Shown here: piece after piece, positions 53,160-64,000 of the stretch
Layout: each line of letters starts with the position of its first letter
How positions within the stretch are numbered: position 1 is the stretch's first letter
DNA from: Pseudomonas sp. St316
GTDB taxonomy: Bacteria; Pseudomonadota; Gammaproteobacteria; Pseudomonadales; Pseudomonadaceae
DNA: 64,000 nucleotides
Assembly (NCBI RefSeq): GCF_018325905.1
Contig: NZ_AP021901.1
Location: 372,001 to 436,000, forward strand
Reading direction: 5' to 3'
Notes under the pieces: model-generated
What the model saw: only the letters and a program-made list of their open reading frames with translations
Told to the model about the DNA's origin: nothing
Database searches by the model: none
Position numbers and translations under genes: made by a program

Positions 53160-54551
53160 TCAATCGGACTCATCGGCTGAACCCTGGCTGCTGTCGCCGA
53201 AGGTCAGCCCGTGTTTGCGTAACTTGTCGTGCAAGGTCTTGCGTGGAATGCCCAAGGCTTCGGCCAGGCTGCGCACCGAGCTGTGGGGGCGGGCCAGTTC
53301 GGCGGCGATCAGGGTTTTCTCGAAGTTTTCCACCTGCTCGCTCAAGCCGCCACTGACCACTTCCACCGGTGCGCCGGGGCTGCCGTCGGGCGCGCTGTTG
53401 TCCAGGGCCAGCTCCAGGCCCAGGGCAAATCGTTCGGCGGCGTTCTGCAGTTCCCGCACATTGCCCGGCCAGCTATGGCGCAGCAGCTGCGCCCGTTGCG
53501 CCGGCTGCAATTCGTGGGGCGGCAGCCCGTGGCGAGCGCTGGCTTCGTCGGCGAAATGCTGGAACAGCATCAGCGCATCCTCACCCCGTTCGCGCAACGG
53601 CGGTATGCGCAGCGGCGCGACGTTCAGGCGGTAATACAAGTCGGCGCGAAAACGCCCCTGGTCGGCGGCCTGGCGCAGGTCTTCCTTGGTGGCGGCGATC
53701 ACGCGGATGTCCAGCGGGATCTGTTGATTGCCCCCCAGTCGCTCCACCACGCGCTCCTGCAGCAGGCGCAGCAGTTTGACCTGGACATCCAGGCTCATGC
53801 TTTCGATTTCATCCAGGAACAGCGTACCGCCGTTGGCGAATTCGAATTTGCCGATGCGGCGTTTCTGCGCGCCGGTAAAAGCGCCGGGTTCGTGGCCGAA
53901 CAGCTCGCTTTCCACCACCGACTCGGCCAGGGCCCCGGCGTTGATCGCCACGAAGGGGCCGTTGCGCCGGCCTGAAAGATCGTGCAATGCACGGGCCACC
54001 ACTTCCTTGCCGGCACCGGTTTCACCGAGGATCAGCACGTCGGCGCGGGTGGCAGCCAGTGCACCGATCTGCTCGCGCAGGCGCAACATGGGGGTCGATT
54101 GGCCGACCAGTCGGGCGCTGAGTTCATGGCGATCGCTCAGGGCCAGGCGCAGGCTGCGGTTGTCCAGCACCAGCCGGCGCAAGGCCAGGGCCCGGCGTAC
54201 GCTGTCGAGCAGATGATCGCTGGCGAAAGGCTTTTCCAGGAAGTCATAGGCTCCGGCGCGCATCGCCTGCACGGCCAACGGCACATCGCCGTGGCCGGTG
54301 ATCAGCAGCACCGGCAGCTCCGAGTCCTGGGCGTGGAGTTCACCCAGCAGTTCGAGGCCGTCCATGCCCGGCATGCGAATATCGCTGACCACCACACCCG
54401 GCCAGTCACGGGGCAGTTGCCCGGCCACACCCTTGGCTTCGGCCAGGGGCAGGATTTTCAGGCCGGCCAAGTCGAGGGTCTGGCTCAGGGCCTGACGCAA
54501 ATGGGGATCGTCGTCGATCAGCACCACCTCAATCCGGTTGTCGATGGTCAT
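53160..54551 (-). CDS. dctD: C4-dicarboxylate response regulator DctD (sigma-54 activator)
   Basis: A 463-residue NtrC-type regulator. The receiver domain (about residues 8-125) shows DDDPHLRQAL, the acceptor Asp in VVSDIRMPGMDG and Lys in LEKPFASD. The AAA+ domain (about 147-380) has Walker A GETGAGKE, the sigma-54 contact GAFTGA, and Walker B GGTLFLDEIE. A Fis-type helix-turn-helix ends the protein (VRSLAEALGIPRKTLHDKLRKHG). It activates sigma-54 promoters of dicarboxylate uptake genes by family. It overlaps dctB by four bases. No dctA or dctPQM gene is in the window. Confidence 0.9.
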   Translation of the reverse strand: MTIDNRIEVVLIDDDPHLRQALSQTLDLAGLKILPLAEAKGVAGQLPRDWPGVVVSDIRMPGMDGLELLGELHAQDSELPVLLITGHGDVPLAVQAMRAGAYDFLEKPFASDHLLDSVRRALALRRLVLDNRSLRLALSDRHELSARLVGQSTPMLRLREQIGALAATRADVLILGETGAGKEVVARALHDLSGRRNGPFVAINAGALAESVVESELFGHEPGAFTGAQKRRIGKFEFANGGTLFLDEIESMSLDVQVKLLRLLQERVVERLGGNQQIPLDIRVIAATKEDLRQAADQGRFRADLYYRLNVAPLRIPPLRERGEDALMLFQHFADEASARHGLPPHELQPAQRAQLLRHSWPGNVRELQNAAERFALGLELALDNSAPDGSPGAPVEVVSGGLSEQVENFEKTLIAAELARPHSSVRSLAEALGIPRKTLHDKLRKHGLTFGDSSQGSADESD

Positions 54552-56362
54552 ACACTTCGGTCCTCGGACGGTTGCAGGCTCACCCCGGGGGCGCCAGCGC
54601 GCAGTTTCAGGGTAATCAGGGCGCCGCCTTCCTTGTGGTTGGCGAACGACAGTTCGCCGCCAAAGGCGCGCATCAGGGTGTCGCAGATCGCCAGCCCTAG
54701 GCCAAGGCCCTGGGTGCGGGTCTTAGTGGTGTAGAAGGGCTCGCCGGCGCGGCCCAGGGCTTCCATGCAAAACCCCGGGCCGTTATCGCGGATGTACAGG
54801 TTGACGCCGGTTTCGGTGGCCTGGGCGCTGAGCCAGAGTTTGCGCGGTGGGCCTTTTTCGGTGAGCGCATCGAGGGCGTTGGCCAGCAGGTTGCCGAGTA
54901 CCTGGCGCAAGCGGGTTTCGCCGGCCTCGACCCACAGCGTGGCGGCCGGCAAGTCACGGATCAGTTCCACTTCCATGCTGCGCCGGCGTTTGGCGAGCAG
55001 TGCCAGGGCGTCGTCCAGCGCCGGTTGCAGGGCGACGCTTTCCGGGGCATGGCGGTCGCGACGGGCAAAGGCGCGCAGGTGGGCGATGATCGAGGCCATG
55101 CGCCCGGTCAGTTCACTGATCAGCTTGAGGTTGCCCCGGGCGTCTTCGGTGCGTTGGTGGTCGAGCAAGATCTCGGCGTTTTCCGCGTAGCTGCGAATCG
55201 CTGCCAGCGGCTGGTTGAGTTCGTGGCTGATGCTCGCGGACATGGTGCCCAGGGCTGATAACTTGCCGGCCTGCACCAGGTCATCCTGAGCGCGGACCAA
55301 TTCCTGCTGGGCCTGTTCGCGCTCCAGCACCTCCTGTTTCAATCGCCGGTTCAGCCCTTCCAGGTCACTGGTGCGCTCGGCCACCCGGCCCTCCAGCTGA
55401 TGACGGGCCTTGGCTTCGAAGGCGATCCGATCCAGGTAATGGCGCCTGCGCTGCATCATCAACCCGAGCAACAACATCAAGACCAGCAGCGCCGCACCTC
55501 CGATGGCGACCACGGTGCGCACCGGACGATCGATCAGCGTGCGCGGGGCAAGAATGCTTACGCTCCAGCCGGTTTCCTCGATGGACTGGGTCTGGGGCAG
55601 CCAGGCATTGGCGTCCAGGTTCAGCGGCTTGGGATCGCGGGTCGGATAAGGTTGTACCGCGCTGATGGCTTGGCGCTCGTCGTCATTGAGGGGCCGGGTC
55701 GCGCGAAATCGCCATTCCTGTCGCGACGTGAGGATGACCACGCCGTTGTGGTCGGTCACCAGCAACTGTTCGGGGGTCTTGCCCCACAGGCTTTCGGTGT
55801 GATCCAGGTCGACCTTGACCACCAGCACCCCGATGACTTTTTCGCGGTCGCGCACGGCGGCGGCAAAGAAGTAACCGCGCTTGGCCGATGTCGTGCCCAG
55901 GCCGAAGAAGCGGCCCAGGCGCCCGGCCATGGCTTCGATAAAGTACGGCCGGAAGGCGAAATTGCGTCCGACGAAACTGTCGTGCTTATCCCAGTTCGAT
56001 GCGGCCAGGGTCTTGCCGGAAGGGTCCATCAGGTACATGACTTCGGCGCCGGTCTGGGCGCTGATGTTTTTCAACAGCCGGTTGGCATTGCCTTGGGTCA
56101 CGCCATCGTCCGGGGCCGACAAGACGGCACGCAAGGCCGGCAGGTCGCCGAGAATCTGCGGCAGCACCTCATAACGGTGCAACGTGCCCAACAGGTTGGC
56201 GACGTAGAGGTCCAGGGTCTGGCGGTTCTGTCCGGCCAGTTCGCTGCGGTAATAACGTTCGGCCAGGTGTTCCAACGGCCACAGCAAGGGCGCCAGGCAC
56301 AGCGCCAGCAAGGCCAGGCTGCGCCAACGGGGTCTGCGGGGAAGGGTGGAATTCATGAGCAT
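54548..56362 (-). CDS. dctB: C4-dicarboxylate sensor histidine kinase DctB
   Basis: A 604-residue kinase. The first membrane segment is at about residues 13-30; then a periplasmic double-Cache domain spans about 35-280 (DKHDSFVGRNFAFRPYFIEAMAG, FAAAVRDREKVIGVLVVKVDL), and the second membrane segment at about 283-305 (TVVAIGGAALLVLMLLLGLMM). A coiled coil (EQAQQELVRAQDDLVQAGKL) leads to the H-box SISHELNQPLAAIRSYAENAEILL, the N-box LGNLLANALDAL, and G-boxes IRDNGPGF and GLGLGLAI. Two ATG codons (56362 and 56356) are possible. It senses succinate-type acids through the Cache domain and partners with DctD. Confidence 0.9.
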   Translation of the reverse strand: MLMNSTLPRRPRWRSLALLALCLAPLLWPLEHLAERYYRSELAGQNRQTLDLYVANLLGTLHRYEVLPQILGDLPALRAVLSAPDDGVTQGNANRLLKNISAQTGAEVMYLMDPSGKTLAASNWDKHDSFVGRNFAFRPYFIEAMAGRLGRFFGLGTTSAKRGYFFAAAVRDREKVIGVLVVKVDLDHTESLWGKTPEQLLVTDHNGVVILTSRQEWRFRATRPLNDDERQAISAVQPYPTRDPKPLNLDANAWLPQTQSIEETGWSVSILAPRTLIDRPVRTVVAIGGAALLVLMLLLGLMMQRRRHYLDRIAFEAKARHQLEGRVAERTSDLEGLNRRLKQEVLEREQAQQELVRAQDDLVQAGKLSALGTMSASISHELNQPLAAIRSYAENAEILLDHQRTEDARGNLKLISELTGRMASIIAHLRAFARRDRHAPESVALQPALDDALALLAKRRRSMEVELIRDLPAATLWVEAGETRLRQVLGNLLANALDALTEKGPPRKLWLSAQATETGVNLYIRDNGPGFCMEALGRAGEPFYTTKTRTQGLGLGLAICDTLMRAFGGELSFANHKEGGALITLKLRAGAPGVSLQPSEDRSV

Positions 56363-60009: not shown

Positions 60010-62921
60010 ATGCCATTCGCTACGTTGGTTCACCGTGCCAGTTTGCCGAGCCCACAGATCAGCGCCGAACAAGCGCTGGTGCTGCTGCGCTCCAATTACG
60101 GACTCAGCGGTGACCTGCGACCCCTTGGCAGCCACCAGGACCTCAACTACCGCGTCGACAGCGAGCGCGGGCGCTTCGTGTTGAAAATTTGCCACGGCGA
60201 CTACGCTGTCCAGGAAATCCAGGCCCAACATGCTGCCTTGAAGCAGTTGGCCGGACATGACGCGGTGAAAGTACCGCGGGTCATTGCAGCCCTTGACGGG
60301 CAAGACCTGCTGACATTGGACGTCGACGGCCAAGCGGTTCATATGCGACTGCTGGAGTACATCGACGGCCAGTCCCTCACCCAGCTCAAGCACTTGACGC
60401 CCGAGCTGGTGACCGGCCTGGGCCGCCTGTGCGCGGAAATGGACCTGGCCCTGGCGACATTCGACCACCCGGGCCTTGCGCGCACCCTGCAATGGGACGC
60501 GCGCCACGCCCCCGCCCTGGTCGATCACCTGTTGCCGGTCATCGACGACGATCAGCGACGCCAACTGATCGCCGAGATCGCGCAACAGGCCGAGCGGCGC
60601 TTGCAGCCGCTCAAGGCCAGCCTGCCGATGCAGGCGATTCATATGGACATCACCGATGACAACGTGGTCTGGCAGCGCGATGCCCAGCGCCAATGGCAAT
60701 TGCAGGGCGTCATCGATTTCGGCGACCTGATCCGCACCTGGCGCATCACTGACTTGTCGGTGACCTGCGCGGCCCTGCTGCACCATGCCGACGGCGATCC
60801 GTTCTTTATCTTGCCGGCGATCAAGGCCTACCAGGCGGTCAACCCCTTGCAACGCGAAGAGCTGCTGGCGCTATGGCCACTGATCGTGGCACGCGCCGCG
60901 GTACTGGTGCTCAGCGGTGAGCAGCAGGTTTGCATCGACCCGGACAACCAATACAGCCGCGACAACCTGGCGCATGAGTGGGAGATTTTTCGGGTCGCCC
61001 ACTCGGTGCCCTTCGAACTGATGGAAGCGGCGATTCTCACCGCCGTCGGCCACGGCCTGTCGCCGATTGCCAGCGAAGGCTTTGCGCCGCTGCTGCCAAC
61101 TCTGGTGGGACGTGAGTTTGCGCTGATTGACCTGGGTGTACTGAGCCCGCATTTCGAGGCCGGCAATTGGGAGCAGCCGGGGATCGACCAGCGCCTGCTG
61201 AGTGAGGCCGCTGGCGTCCATGGCCTGGCCGCCAGCCGCTACGGGCAGTACCGGTTATCCCGCACTCGGCCGGACAGCGCCGGCGAACCCGATACTTATC
61301 CACTGCACGTGGAGTTGAGCGTTCCCGGGGGACGCCGCTCGAATCCCCGTTCGCAGGGGTCGTGCACAAGGCTGCCGACGGCCTGTTGCAGCTGGACAGC
61401 GCACAGTTGAGCGTGCGGCTGTGGGGCGTGACGTCGCCGCTGCATTCCGGCGCGGCACTGGTCAAGGGGCAGGTGCTGGGCGAAGTGACGGGGCCGTTGC
61501 GGGTCCAGTTGTGCCGTGGCGCCCAGGTGAATCCACCGCTGTTCTGCACGCCCTCCAGGGCACTGGCCTGGCAGGCGCTATGCCCTTCGCCGGCGGTGCT
61601 GCTGGGACTGGCTTGCGATGCCGAGCCGGAGATTGATCCCCAGGTGCTGCTGGCCCGTCGCGATGCGAGCTTTGCCCGTTCGCAGAAGCACTATTACGTC
61701 GATCCGCCGCGTATCGAGCGCGGCTGGCGCAATCACCTGATCGACATGCAGGGCCGCTCCTACCTGGACATGCTCAACAATGTCGCGGTGCTGGGCCATG
61801 GTCATCCACGCATGGCGGCAGTGGCTGCCCGGCAATGGTCGCTGCTCAATACCAACTCGCGTTTCCACTATGCGGCGATTGCCGAATTTTCCGAACGCCT
61901 GCTGGCGTTGGCGCCGTCCAACATGGACCGGGTGTTCCTGGTCAACAGCGGCACCGAGGCCAATGACCTGGCGATCCGCCTGGCCTGGGCCTACAGCGGC
62001 GGGCGGGACATGCTCAGCGTACTGGAGGCCTATCACGGCTGGTCGGTGGCGGCCGATGCGGTCTCGACGTCCATTGCCGACAACCCCCTGGCCCTGAGCA
62101 GCCGCCCGGACTGGGTGCATCCGGTGACGGCACCGAACACCTATCGCGGCGAATTCCGTGGCCTCGACACTGCGCCGGACTACGTGCGCAGCGTGGAACA
62201 CAACCTGGCGAAAATCGCCGAGAGCAAGCGCCAGCTTGCCGGTTTCATCTGCGAACCGGTGTACGGCAACGCCGGTGGGATCGCGCTGCCGCCTGGTTAC
62301 CTGAAGCAGGTCTACGCGAGGGTGCGCGAGCGTGGTGGGGTTTGCATCGCCGACGAAGTACAGGTCGGTTACGGGCGCATGGGCGAGTTTTTCTGGGGCT
62401 TCGAAGAGCAAGGCGTGGTGCCGGACATCATCACCATGGCCAAGGGCATGGGCAACGGCCAGCCGCTGGGCGCGGTCATTACCCGCCGGGAGATCGCCGA
62501 GGCGCTGGAAGCCGAGGGTTATTTCTTTTCGTCGGCCGGAGGCAGCCCGGTCAGTTGCCAGATCGGCATGGCGGTGCTGGATGTCATGGAAGAAGAAAAT
62601 CTCTGGGAAAACGCCCGAGTAGTGGGCGGGCACTTCAAGGCGCGGCTGGAGGCCTTGATCGACCGCTATCCATTGGTCGGCGCGGTCCATGGCTCCGGGT
62701 TCTACCTGGGCGTGGAACTGATCCGCGATCGCGACACGTTGGAGCCGGCCACTGAAGAAACCACGGCGCTGTGCAACCGCCTGCGAGCGTTGGGGATCTT
62801 CATGCAACCGACCGGCGATTACCTGAACATCCTCAAGATCAAACCGCCGATGGTCACCACGCGCCAGAGCGTGGATTTCTTCGTCGATATGCTGGTGAAG
62901 GTCTTGGACGAGGGGTTGTAA
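60010..62921 (+). pseudogene. Fused APH-type kinase / class III PLP enzyme, split by a one-base deletion
   Basis: From ATG 60010 the first frame encodes a kinase domain (about residues 30-330; catalytic HMDITDDN and metal-binding VIDFGD). Then comes a linker with a lysostaphin-like (M23) segment; in this segment the frame breaks at the GGGGG run 61327-61331. The second frame, to 62921, continues SPFAGVVHKAADGLLQLDSAQLSVRLWG and then a complete class III PLP domain (LNNVAVLGHGHPRM, VNSGTEANDLAIRLA, ADEVQVGYGRMG, and the PLP Lys in ITMAKGMGNGQPLG). Restoring one G gives a single protein of about 970 residues, the known length for this fusion. The fusion resembles hydroxylysine kinase joined to a phospholyase. 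It is probably an intact gene if the base is a sequencing loss. Confidence 0.88.
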
Positions 62922-63174: not shown

Positions 63175-64000
63175 ATGACAACGTTGCACAGCACTCCGCG
63201 CGCGGATGGTTTCCACATGCCTGCCGAGTGGGCGACCCAGACCCAGGTCTGGATGATCTGGCCCGAGCGCCCGGACAACTGGCGCCTGGGCGGCAAGCCC
63301 GCGCAGGCTGCCCACGTAGCGGTCGCCAAGGCTATCGCCCGTTTTGAACCGGTGACCGTGGCGGTGTCTGCGGCCCAGTACGAAAATGCCCGGGCGCGTC
63401 TCGACGTGCCGAATATCCGCCTGGTGGAAATGTCCAGCGACGACGCCTGGGTTCGCGACACAGGGCCGACGTTCGTCATCAATGACAACGGCGAAGTGCG
63501 CGGTGTCGATTGGGATTTCAACGCCTGGGGCGGTTTCGACGGTGGCCTGTATGCGCCGTGGAACCGTGATGCGCAAGTGGCCGGCAAGATCCTTGAGATC
63601 GAGCGCAGCCCGCGTTATCGCACCGAAGGTTTTGTGCTCGAGGGCGGCTCGATCCACGTGGATGGCGAAGGCACCCTGATCACCACCGAAGAGTGCCTGC
63701 TCAACCGCAATCGCAACCCGCACTTGAGCCGTGAAGAGATCGAGGCCGTGCTCAGCGCGCAGTTGGCGGTGGACAAGATCATCTGGCTGCCGGACGGTCT
63801 GTTCAATGACGAAACCGACGGCCACGTGGATAACTTTTGCTGCTACGTGCGGCCAGGCGAAGTCCTGCTTGCCTGGACCGACGACCCGCAAGACCCGAAC
63901 TACGCCCGCTGCCACGCGGCAATGAATGTGCTGCAAAACAGCACTGACGCCAAGGGACGCCCGTTCACAGTGCACAAAATGCCGATTCCGGGGCCGCTGT
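63175..64000 (+). CDS. aguA: Agmatine deiminase, cut by window edge
   Basis: The frame opens at ATG 63175 with AGGAG about seven bases upstream and runs off the end at 64000, giving about 275 of roughly 368 residues. It matches the peptidyl-arginine-deiminase-like family: [23 protein letters not shown] near the start, [15 protein letters not shown] (catalytic Asp region, about residue 85-99), [36 protein letters not shown], and [14 protein letters not shown] with the catalytic His. It converts agmatine to N-carbamoylputrescine. The catalytic Cys near the C-terminus lies beyond the window. Confidence 0.93.

Follow-up and report, generated by a model that had tools for sequence, protein, structure and literature searches.

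A probable kinase and phospho-lyase fusion, named as an aminotransferase, in Pseudomonas and its interrupted copy in Pseudomonas sp. St316

Bacterial bi- and trifunctional proteins in which a kinase is fused to an AGXT2L domain were reportedly described by Veiga-da-Cunha et al. in 2012 (JBC 287:7246), where they are said to have provided a clue to the animal enzymes. That article appears in the reference lists of PMC13406643 and of a 2025 review, in the latter beside papers on gene fusion (PMC12138971). Animal AGXT2L1 and AGXT2L2 are lyases acting on phosphoethanolamine and phosphohydroxylysine (PMC9283133), PbfA is another class III "aminotransferase" that was found to be a lyase (PMC8154272), and a 2019 study of microcompartment gene clusters interprets an aminotransferase and phosphotransferase pair without a phospho-lyase step (PMC6620236). 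Our own literature search, with most subscription journals outside its coverage, found no paper assigning a function to the fusion found in Pseudomonas. Here we analyze a copy of this fusion gene in Pseudomonas sp. St316, located within a window of 64,000 nucleotides (the whole stretch of DNA analyzed, positions 372,001 to 436,000 of contig NZ_AP021901.1), in which an APH-fold kinase precedes a class III pyridoxal phosphate (PLP) domain. The intact gene probably encodes a two-step catabolic enzyme, a kinase plus a phospho-lyase; we place the probability of this reading as a whole at roughly four in five. The features of the gene, in window coordinates, are as follows.

60010..61410, + strand: kinase piece, an open reading frame (ORF) of 466 amino acids in frame 1, with the kinase domain at about 60010-61053
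61045..61643, + strand: linker (limits approximate), a decayed M23 (lysostaphin-like) domain by sequence comparison, straddling the frame break
61206..62921, + strand: PLP piece in frame 3, open from 61206, with the ORF at 61362-62921
61300..61362, no strand assigned: stretch in which the frame changes between the kinase piece and the PLP piece
61713-62906, + strand: class III PLP domain (PF00202, residues 118-515)
61860, + strand: clade-diagnostic Arg codon
62442, + strand: PLP Lys codon
62835, + strand: clade-diagnostic Lys codon

One line of evidence for this reading comes from the PLP domain. Its top sequence matches in the PDB are the human ethanolamine-phosphate phospho-lyase (6TOR, 320 bits) and an Arthrobacter phospholyase (5G4I, 244 bits), with dialkylglycine decarboxylase (202 bits) and GabT (171 bits) further down. 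A tree of 58 PLP domains was constructed from 14 fused domains including that of the window, 30 stand-alone domains, 6TOR, 5G4I, and 12 outside rows, the last comprising 10 class III enzymes that the window's genome encodes, plus E. coli GabT and dialkylglycine decarboxylase. The own-genome rows represent 10 of 14 other class III places, and 9 of the 10 score above a named-family cut-off, L053 being the exception; the phospho-lyase-like rows were picked by similarity to the fusion family, and activity is known for two members only. A branch with 100/100 support separates the 46 phospho-lyase-like rows, 6TOR and 5G4I among them, from the 12 transaminase and decarboxylase rows. Within the clade, 6TOR groups with 13 of the 14 fused rows (96/96), and the fourteenth fusion (L014) and 5G4I lie on the stand-alone side, 5G4I together with L015 and L016 (99/94). 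Because the two known phospholyases lie on either side of the first fork of the clade, elimination would be its most economical ancestral reaction.

The active-site residues follow the same division. Arg398 of GabT is the contact to the 2-oxo acid; the corresponding position is Lys in all 46 clade rows and Arg in 9 of the 12 outside rows, and the position of the gate Glu is Glu in none of the 46 and in 7 of the 12. The window protein has Lys492 at the former position and Asn at the latter. This signature, Lys for Arg plus loss of the gate Glu, was derived here from the two known phospholyases. Five further residues, Asn139, Asn140, Arg167, Arg206 and Phe389 (519-amino-acid numbering), occur in every clade row and in none outside it, save for Arg206 in 1 of the 12 rows. 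The PLP Lys and its Asp are retained in every row of the tree. The window domain neither groups with the class III aminotransferases (GabT, AstC, BioA and others) nor carries the 2-oxo-acid Arg; it lies in the clade of the ammonia-phospho-lyases (EC 4.2.3.2 type) and bears their residues at the Arg and Glu positions.

These results favor the proposal made in a preliminary description of this DNA, namely a kinase plus an ammonia-phospho-lyase rather than an aminotransferase; a placement of the PLP domain among GABA or ornithine transaminases, which that description had named as evidence against itself, did not occur in the tree. The NCBIfam label would make the protein an ordinary omega-aminotransferase fused to a kinase, and the PF00202 fold, the curated name of the family (NF004800), and the PLP Lys and Asp, present as in any class III enzyme, all agree with that label. 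Nevertheless, the 100/100 separation from the 10 own-genome class III enzymes, GabT and dialkylglycine decarboxylase, combined with the replacement of the 2-oxo-acid Arg by Lys in 46 of 46 rows and the absence of the gate Glu, makes an aminotransferase highly improbable, and we reject it on the tree and the residues. The Pseudomonas-type domains also have changes of their own, Ser at the position of T297 and Trp at that of R141, and a long stem of 1.05 changes per column, and for these reasons their substrate may differ from that of their cousins.

Another line of evidence is the association with kinases. The kinase domain of the window (PF01636, E 4.9e-31) has the HxDxxxxN and DFGD motifs of APH-fold small-molecule kinases, with both catalytic motifs intact (HMDITDDN at 60640-60663 and IDFGD at 60712-60726). 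Of 47 stand-alone PLP loci of the clade, 42 (35/39 plus 7/8) have a same-strand APH kinase no more than 200 bases away, versus none of the 11 class III transaminase loci from that genome, examined with 1.5 kb flanks (Fisher 1.9e-8). The 42 adjacent loci are not all independent, since some of these kinases went into the training of the kinase model and L020 nearly duplicates L021. The five loci without such a kinase are L187, L191, L192, L194 and L220, and in three of these (L187, L192 and L220) a kinase lies on the opposite strand, 1.1-1.8 kb off. The count omits L178 and the weaker second PLP matches in L177, L183, L188, L189, L190, L196 and L217, which score 176-275, like transaminases. L178 (8238-9461, in genome G064) codes for an M23-PLP protein of the same clade with no kinase domain or neighboring kinase; G064 carries a complete fusion elsewhere (L177).

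A profile of the kinase family matches 6EF6 first among PDB sequences (165 bits, the next 92), and the Foldseek title of that entry is a microcompartment-associated aminopropanol kinase. By fold, however, other APH kinases outrank 6EF6, and the kinase tree consists of two 100/100 clades. In one, 6EF6 is joined by 13 stand-alone kinases; in the other, the window kinase is joined by the remaining 11 fusions and a different set of 13 stand-alone kinases. The window kinase is thus outside the 6EF6-type amino-alcohol kinases, and because of the fold ranking and the separate clade, the aminopropanol label is not transferable to it. The lyase and kinase trees disagree for L204-L207, where lyases of the large stand-alone group are paired with 6EF6-clade kinases, a conflict that suggests partner exchange.

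Structure prediction contributed to the kinase part only. A full-length model from 30 close sequences has a mean predicted local distance difference test (pLDDT) score of 54, with block means mostly of 70-95 in the kinase, strands of about 64-80 in the linker at residues 440-500, and a poor PLP part, so that fold searches with it inform on the kinase alone. The Foldseek placements of 6TOR (rank 19) and 5G4I (rank 34), with TM-scores of 0.26 or less, are not usable. The linker modelled by itself reached a mean pLDDT of 34 and was not used. No M23 entry appears among the 50 rows shown of either fold search, which says nothing either way.

The fusion is common in the genus. It is present in one frame, with 967-1007 amino acids, in 80 of the 80 closest named Pseudomonas loci, these being the best 80 of 429, a set that may lack records very close to the window's genome. 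Three of the 80 (L130, L131 and L135) belong to one P. costantinii assembly, in which each of three contigs holds one copy of the fusion, reflecting either duplication or an odd assembly. In a sample of 57 related genomes, 36 of them Pseudomonas and one (G000) the window's genome, the fusion is whole in 25 of the 36 Pseudomonas and broken in two (G000 and, at a different place, G034); in the other 9 it was not found above the family cut-off. The break in G034 (L025) lies within the PLP domain and not in the linker. With a threshold of E 1e-150, a match to the full-length fusion was obtained in 155 of 199 sampled genomes of the genus, at least two of which (G000 and G034) have broken copies. 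In seven comparisons with the intact gene of L058, dN/dS (the ratio of nonsynonymous to synonymous rates) is 0.08-0.17 for the kinase, 0.075-0.14 for the linker and 0.02-0.08 for the PLP domain; the intact gene is under purifying selection.

The window's own copy departs from this pattern. The preliminary description had an APH-fold kinase and a class III PLP domain, with aguA as a neighbor, and the matches to PF01636, PF00202 (E 6.3e-68, 3' of the kinase) and, downstream of both, TIGR03380 (agmatine deiminase) bear this out; it had also described the two enzymes as joined in a single bacterial protein, which does not hold in this strain, where they are in frames 1 and 3. Relative to NF004800, a model of 972 positions named "aminotransferase", the kinase piece covers positions 3-443 (594.9 bits) and the PLP piece positions 454-971 (985.8 bits, by itself above the family cut-off of 973), but the kinase frame closes at 61410 and the PLP frame differs, so no single frame spans the model. 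The last ~28 residues of the kinase piece are outside the ancestral frame, and the earliest possible start of the PLP piece is a GTG at 61362, giving 519 amino acids.

Two origins of the break are plausible. Compared with each of three close relatives, the window gene shows a single indel, located in the linker, and a net length difference of one base, and both pieces still look constrained: against P. kilonensis, the closest named match to the PLP piece (98% identity), dN and dS are 0.028 and 0.229 for the kinase piece (dN/dS about 0.12) and 0.009 and 0.175 for the PLP piece (dN/dS about 0.05). The break is therefore recent or false: either a small indel recently split the linker of the gene in this strain, or the sequence contains an error. 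It is more likely than not, as a matter separate from the reaction, that the gene is dead in this genome or the break a sequencing error, in which case the window is silent on a working fusion in this strain; the single small indel and the second broken copy in G034 agree with this. On the other side, the genome is a single contig with 100% completeness, which is mildly against poor assembly, and translation of the PLP piece could begin at the GTG, which has a purine stretch close by, so that two working pieces are possible. A promoter and terminator scan returned one promoter-like and six terminator-like sites and was not used.

The linker is best understood by comparison with a second fusion type, NF004799 (PRK06148). 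Pfam M23 has no match in the window pieces or in four intact Pseudomonas-type proteins (L026, L042, L043 and L147), whereas it is significant in three scanned PRK06148-type fusions (E 5.9e-12, 2e-12 and 5.7e-11). The metal-ligand motifs HxxxD and HxH are retained in five aligned PRK06148-type rows, and the Pseudomonas-type rows have other residues there. A profile of the linker nevertheless aligns with the PRK06148-type M23 linker over 170 columns (hhalign, 97.5%, E 6.7e-12). The linker thus lacks both the Pfam match and the ligands of Peptidase M23 and retains homology to the PRK06148 linker; judged from these alignments, it is a decayed M23 domain that has lost its metal ligands. The earlier term "lysostaphin-like linker" is therefore apt as to descent, and goes too far if it implies an M23 domain that Pfam recognizes or that binds metal. 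A scaffold or docking role would fit such a domain, and a peptidase role would not. In PRK06148-type proteins L138, L139, L142, L143 and L144, a ligand-bearing M23 domain lies between kinase and lyase; the kinase and lyase are expected in the cytosol because they depend on ATP and PLP.

From the established domain content, reading frames, clade, active-site residues, kinase adjacency and purifying selection, we infer the following reaction. With ATP as donor, the APH kinase would phosphorylate a vicinal amino alcohol (R-CHOH-CH2-NH2 type) at its hydroxyl group. The PLP domain would form an external aldimine with the amine adjoining the phosphorylated carbon and then eliminate inorganic phosphate, and the resulting enamine would shed ammonia to yield an aldehyde. 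The decayed M23 domain between the enzymes would serve as a structural spacer or docking piece, with no peptidase activity. In the window strain, because the gene is broken, the enzymes would have to act as two polypeptides, provided that the PLP piece is produced at all.

For the substrate, our first guess is 5-hydroxylysine, with about one chance in three. The product would be 2-aminoadipate semialdehyde, a possible entry to the lysine/2-aminoadipate route. PRK06148-type fusions adjoin an AsnC/Lrp regulator and a family-3 solute-binding protein (L172) or an amino acid permease (L171), neighbors that fit an amino acid substrate. The window's genome has a 2-aminoadipate transaminase (751 bits, cut-off 650) and a homologue of HglS, and could therefore consume 2-aminoadipate semialdehyde. 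Of the Pseudomonas genomes, 25 of the 27 with a fusion gene and 4 of the 9 without one have HglS matches above 290 bits, a co-occurrence that ignores kinship and is suggestive only.

Ethanolamine or 1-aminopropan-2-ol, which a kinase plus phospho-lyase would convert to acetaldehyde or propionaldehyde, are unlikely as the substrate. An amino-alcohol route of this kind was described for Pseudomonas and Erwinia in the 1970s, and to our knowledge the bacterial ethanolamine and aminopropanol phospho-lyase activities of that decade were described without sequences. The nearest solved relative of the PLP domain is a phosphoethanolamine enzyme, and among solved kinases an aminopropanol kinase is the closest in sequence. 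However, EutB is present in 35 of the 36 Pseudomonas, the window's genome among them, and for this reason ethanolamine is unlikely to be the main substrate; the available part of a fitness study of P. putida KT2440 places ethanolamine catabolism with cobalamin biosynthesis (PMC10949508). A different gene set also fits this role better. Operons at L015 (5980-9613) and L016 (5308-8913) combine an ethanolamine-permease-like gene, a phospho-lyase near 5G4I, and a DFDD kinase of the 6EF6 clade. The L016 permease scores 334 bits against the ethanolamine permease model, under the cut-off of 382. G027, one of the two host genomes, is the sole Pseudomonas of the 36 without EutB (Fisher 0.056). The genes of these operons are candidates for the amino-alcohol kinase and phospho-lyase of the older descriptions.

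Two conserved loci flank the fusion.

63175..64000, + strand: aguA, agmatine deiminase, continuing past the window end
53160..56362, - strand: NtrC-type response regulator and sensor kinase, on the opposite flank of the locus

The aguA gene matches TIGR03380 with 452.6 bits (cut-off 381.8) despite being cut by the window end. It lies downstream of the fusion in 78 of the 78 named loci with room for it, with aguB between in 52 of the 78; two of the 80 loci are too short, and the 78 comprise 77 found by script plus L058, in which the aguA ORF was called too far upstream. This conservation, and the occurrence in several genomes of separate kinase-lyase pairs (L019-L022 and others) next to a gene whose product resembles, presumably, a periplasmic polyamine-binding protein (no NCBIfam family was found for it), would agree with a kinase plus phospho-lyase that acts on a hydroxylated diamine, for example 2-hydroxyputrescine, and supplies a putrescine/GABA route beside aguBA. 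Yet aguA is present in all 36 Pseudomonas, including the 9 without the fusion, which weakens it as a functional partner. Moreover, three fusions of the same type in another bacterial class (L168-L170) have no aguA or aguB among the fetched neighbors, with L169 cut short, and the gap from fusion stop to aguB is 129-742 bases, with a middle half of 255-308. A diamine substrate is accordingly quite unlikely, and the earlier hint that aguA signals amine or polyamine catabolism survives as a conserved adjacency of weak functional meaning. On the other flank, the regulator and sensor kinase have homologues in 19 of 19 other fusion loci, and none of the NCBIfam families listed for them reaches its cut-off. 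Just past the window, L045:14473-15219 of G000 codes for a 2-oxoglutarate-Fe dioxygenase (PF10014), with homologues in 2 of the 19 loci.

Hydrolases of several kinds are also found with the kinase-lyase module. First, M23 with its ligands retained is part of the PRK06148 fusions. Second, L170:12339-18194 (the L147 locus, in another bacterial class) has a Pseudomonas-type fusion, its own M23 piece decayed, and after it genes for a peptidase S58 and a family-5 solute-binding transporter. Third, in L197:4711-8375 a peptidase M20 gene lies immediately upstream of a separate kinase-lyase pair. Because hydrolases recur beside the module in unrelated forms, the module may act on a hydroxylated amino compound that is taken up in bound form, in peptides or amides, e.g. 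hydroxylysine peptides, with the Pseudomonas hydrolase reduced to a scaffold; we regard this as a long shot. If true, it would point to a bacterial hydroxylysine route, and the L015/L016 operon would supply the genes so far lacking for the amino-alcohol kinase and phospho-lyase activities described earlier in Pseudomonas.

Since 155 of 199 genomes match the fusion and the NCBIfam model is named aminotransferase, a widespread catabolic step is probably misnamed. The tree and the residues provide a rule for renaming: Lys where GabT has Arg398, the Asn-Asn pair, and the extra Arg. Separate candidate genes are indicated for the bacterial ethanolamine and aminopropanol phospho-lyase activities. We take the idea of the preliminary description to be a re-derivation of one presumably already published, correctly applied to a family named aminotransferase; new here are the test by tree and residues, the adjacency of kinase genes together with its control, the decayed M23 linker, the case against ethanolamine, and the broken copy in the window.

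Compared with described systems, the Pseudomonas PLP domain shares its clade, the Lys at the 2-oxo-acid Arg position and the loss of the gate Glu with human ETNPPL/AGXT2L1 (6TOR; sister PHYKPL/AGXT2L2), but the human enzyme is a separate protein and the Pseudomonas type is a long branch with its own active-site changes. The Arthrobacter aurescens phospholyase A1RDF1 (5G4I) has the same clade and diagnostic residues, but is on the stand-alone branch, nearest to the permease-lyase-kinase operons of L015/L016. The aminopropanol kinase 6EF6 is the best PDB sequence match to the kinase family profile and yet belongs to the other deep kinase clade. Among fusions, the window pieces together span positions 3-443 and 454-971 of NF004800 (PRK06149), whereas NF004799 (PRK06148), of which seven proteins of 1003-1028 amino acids were seen, differs in its M23 domain, detected in the three scanned and with both ligand motifs in the five aligned. 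The kinase-AGXT2L fusions attributed to the 2012 article reportedly have the same architecture; the Pseudomonas genes would be a subtype with a decayed M23 domain, and the window copy a split member of it.

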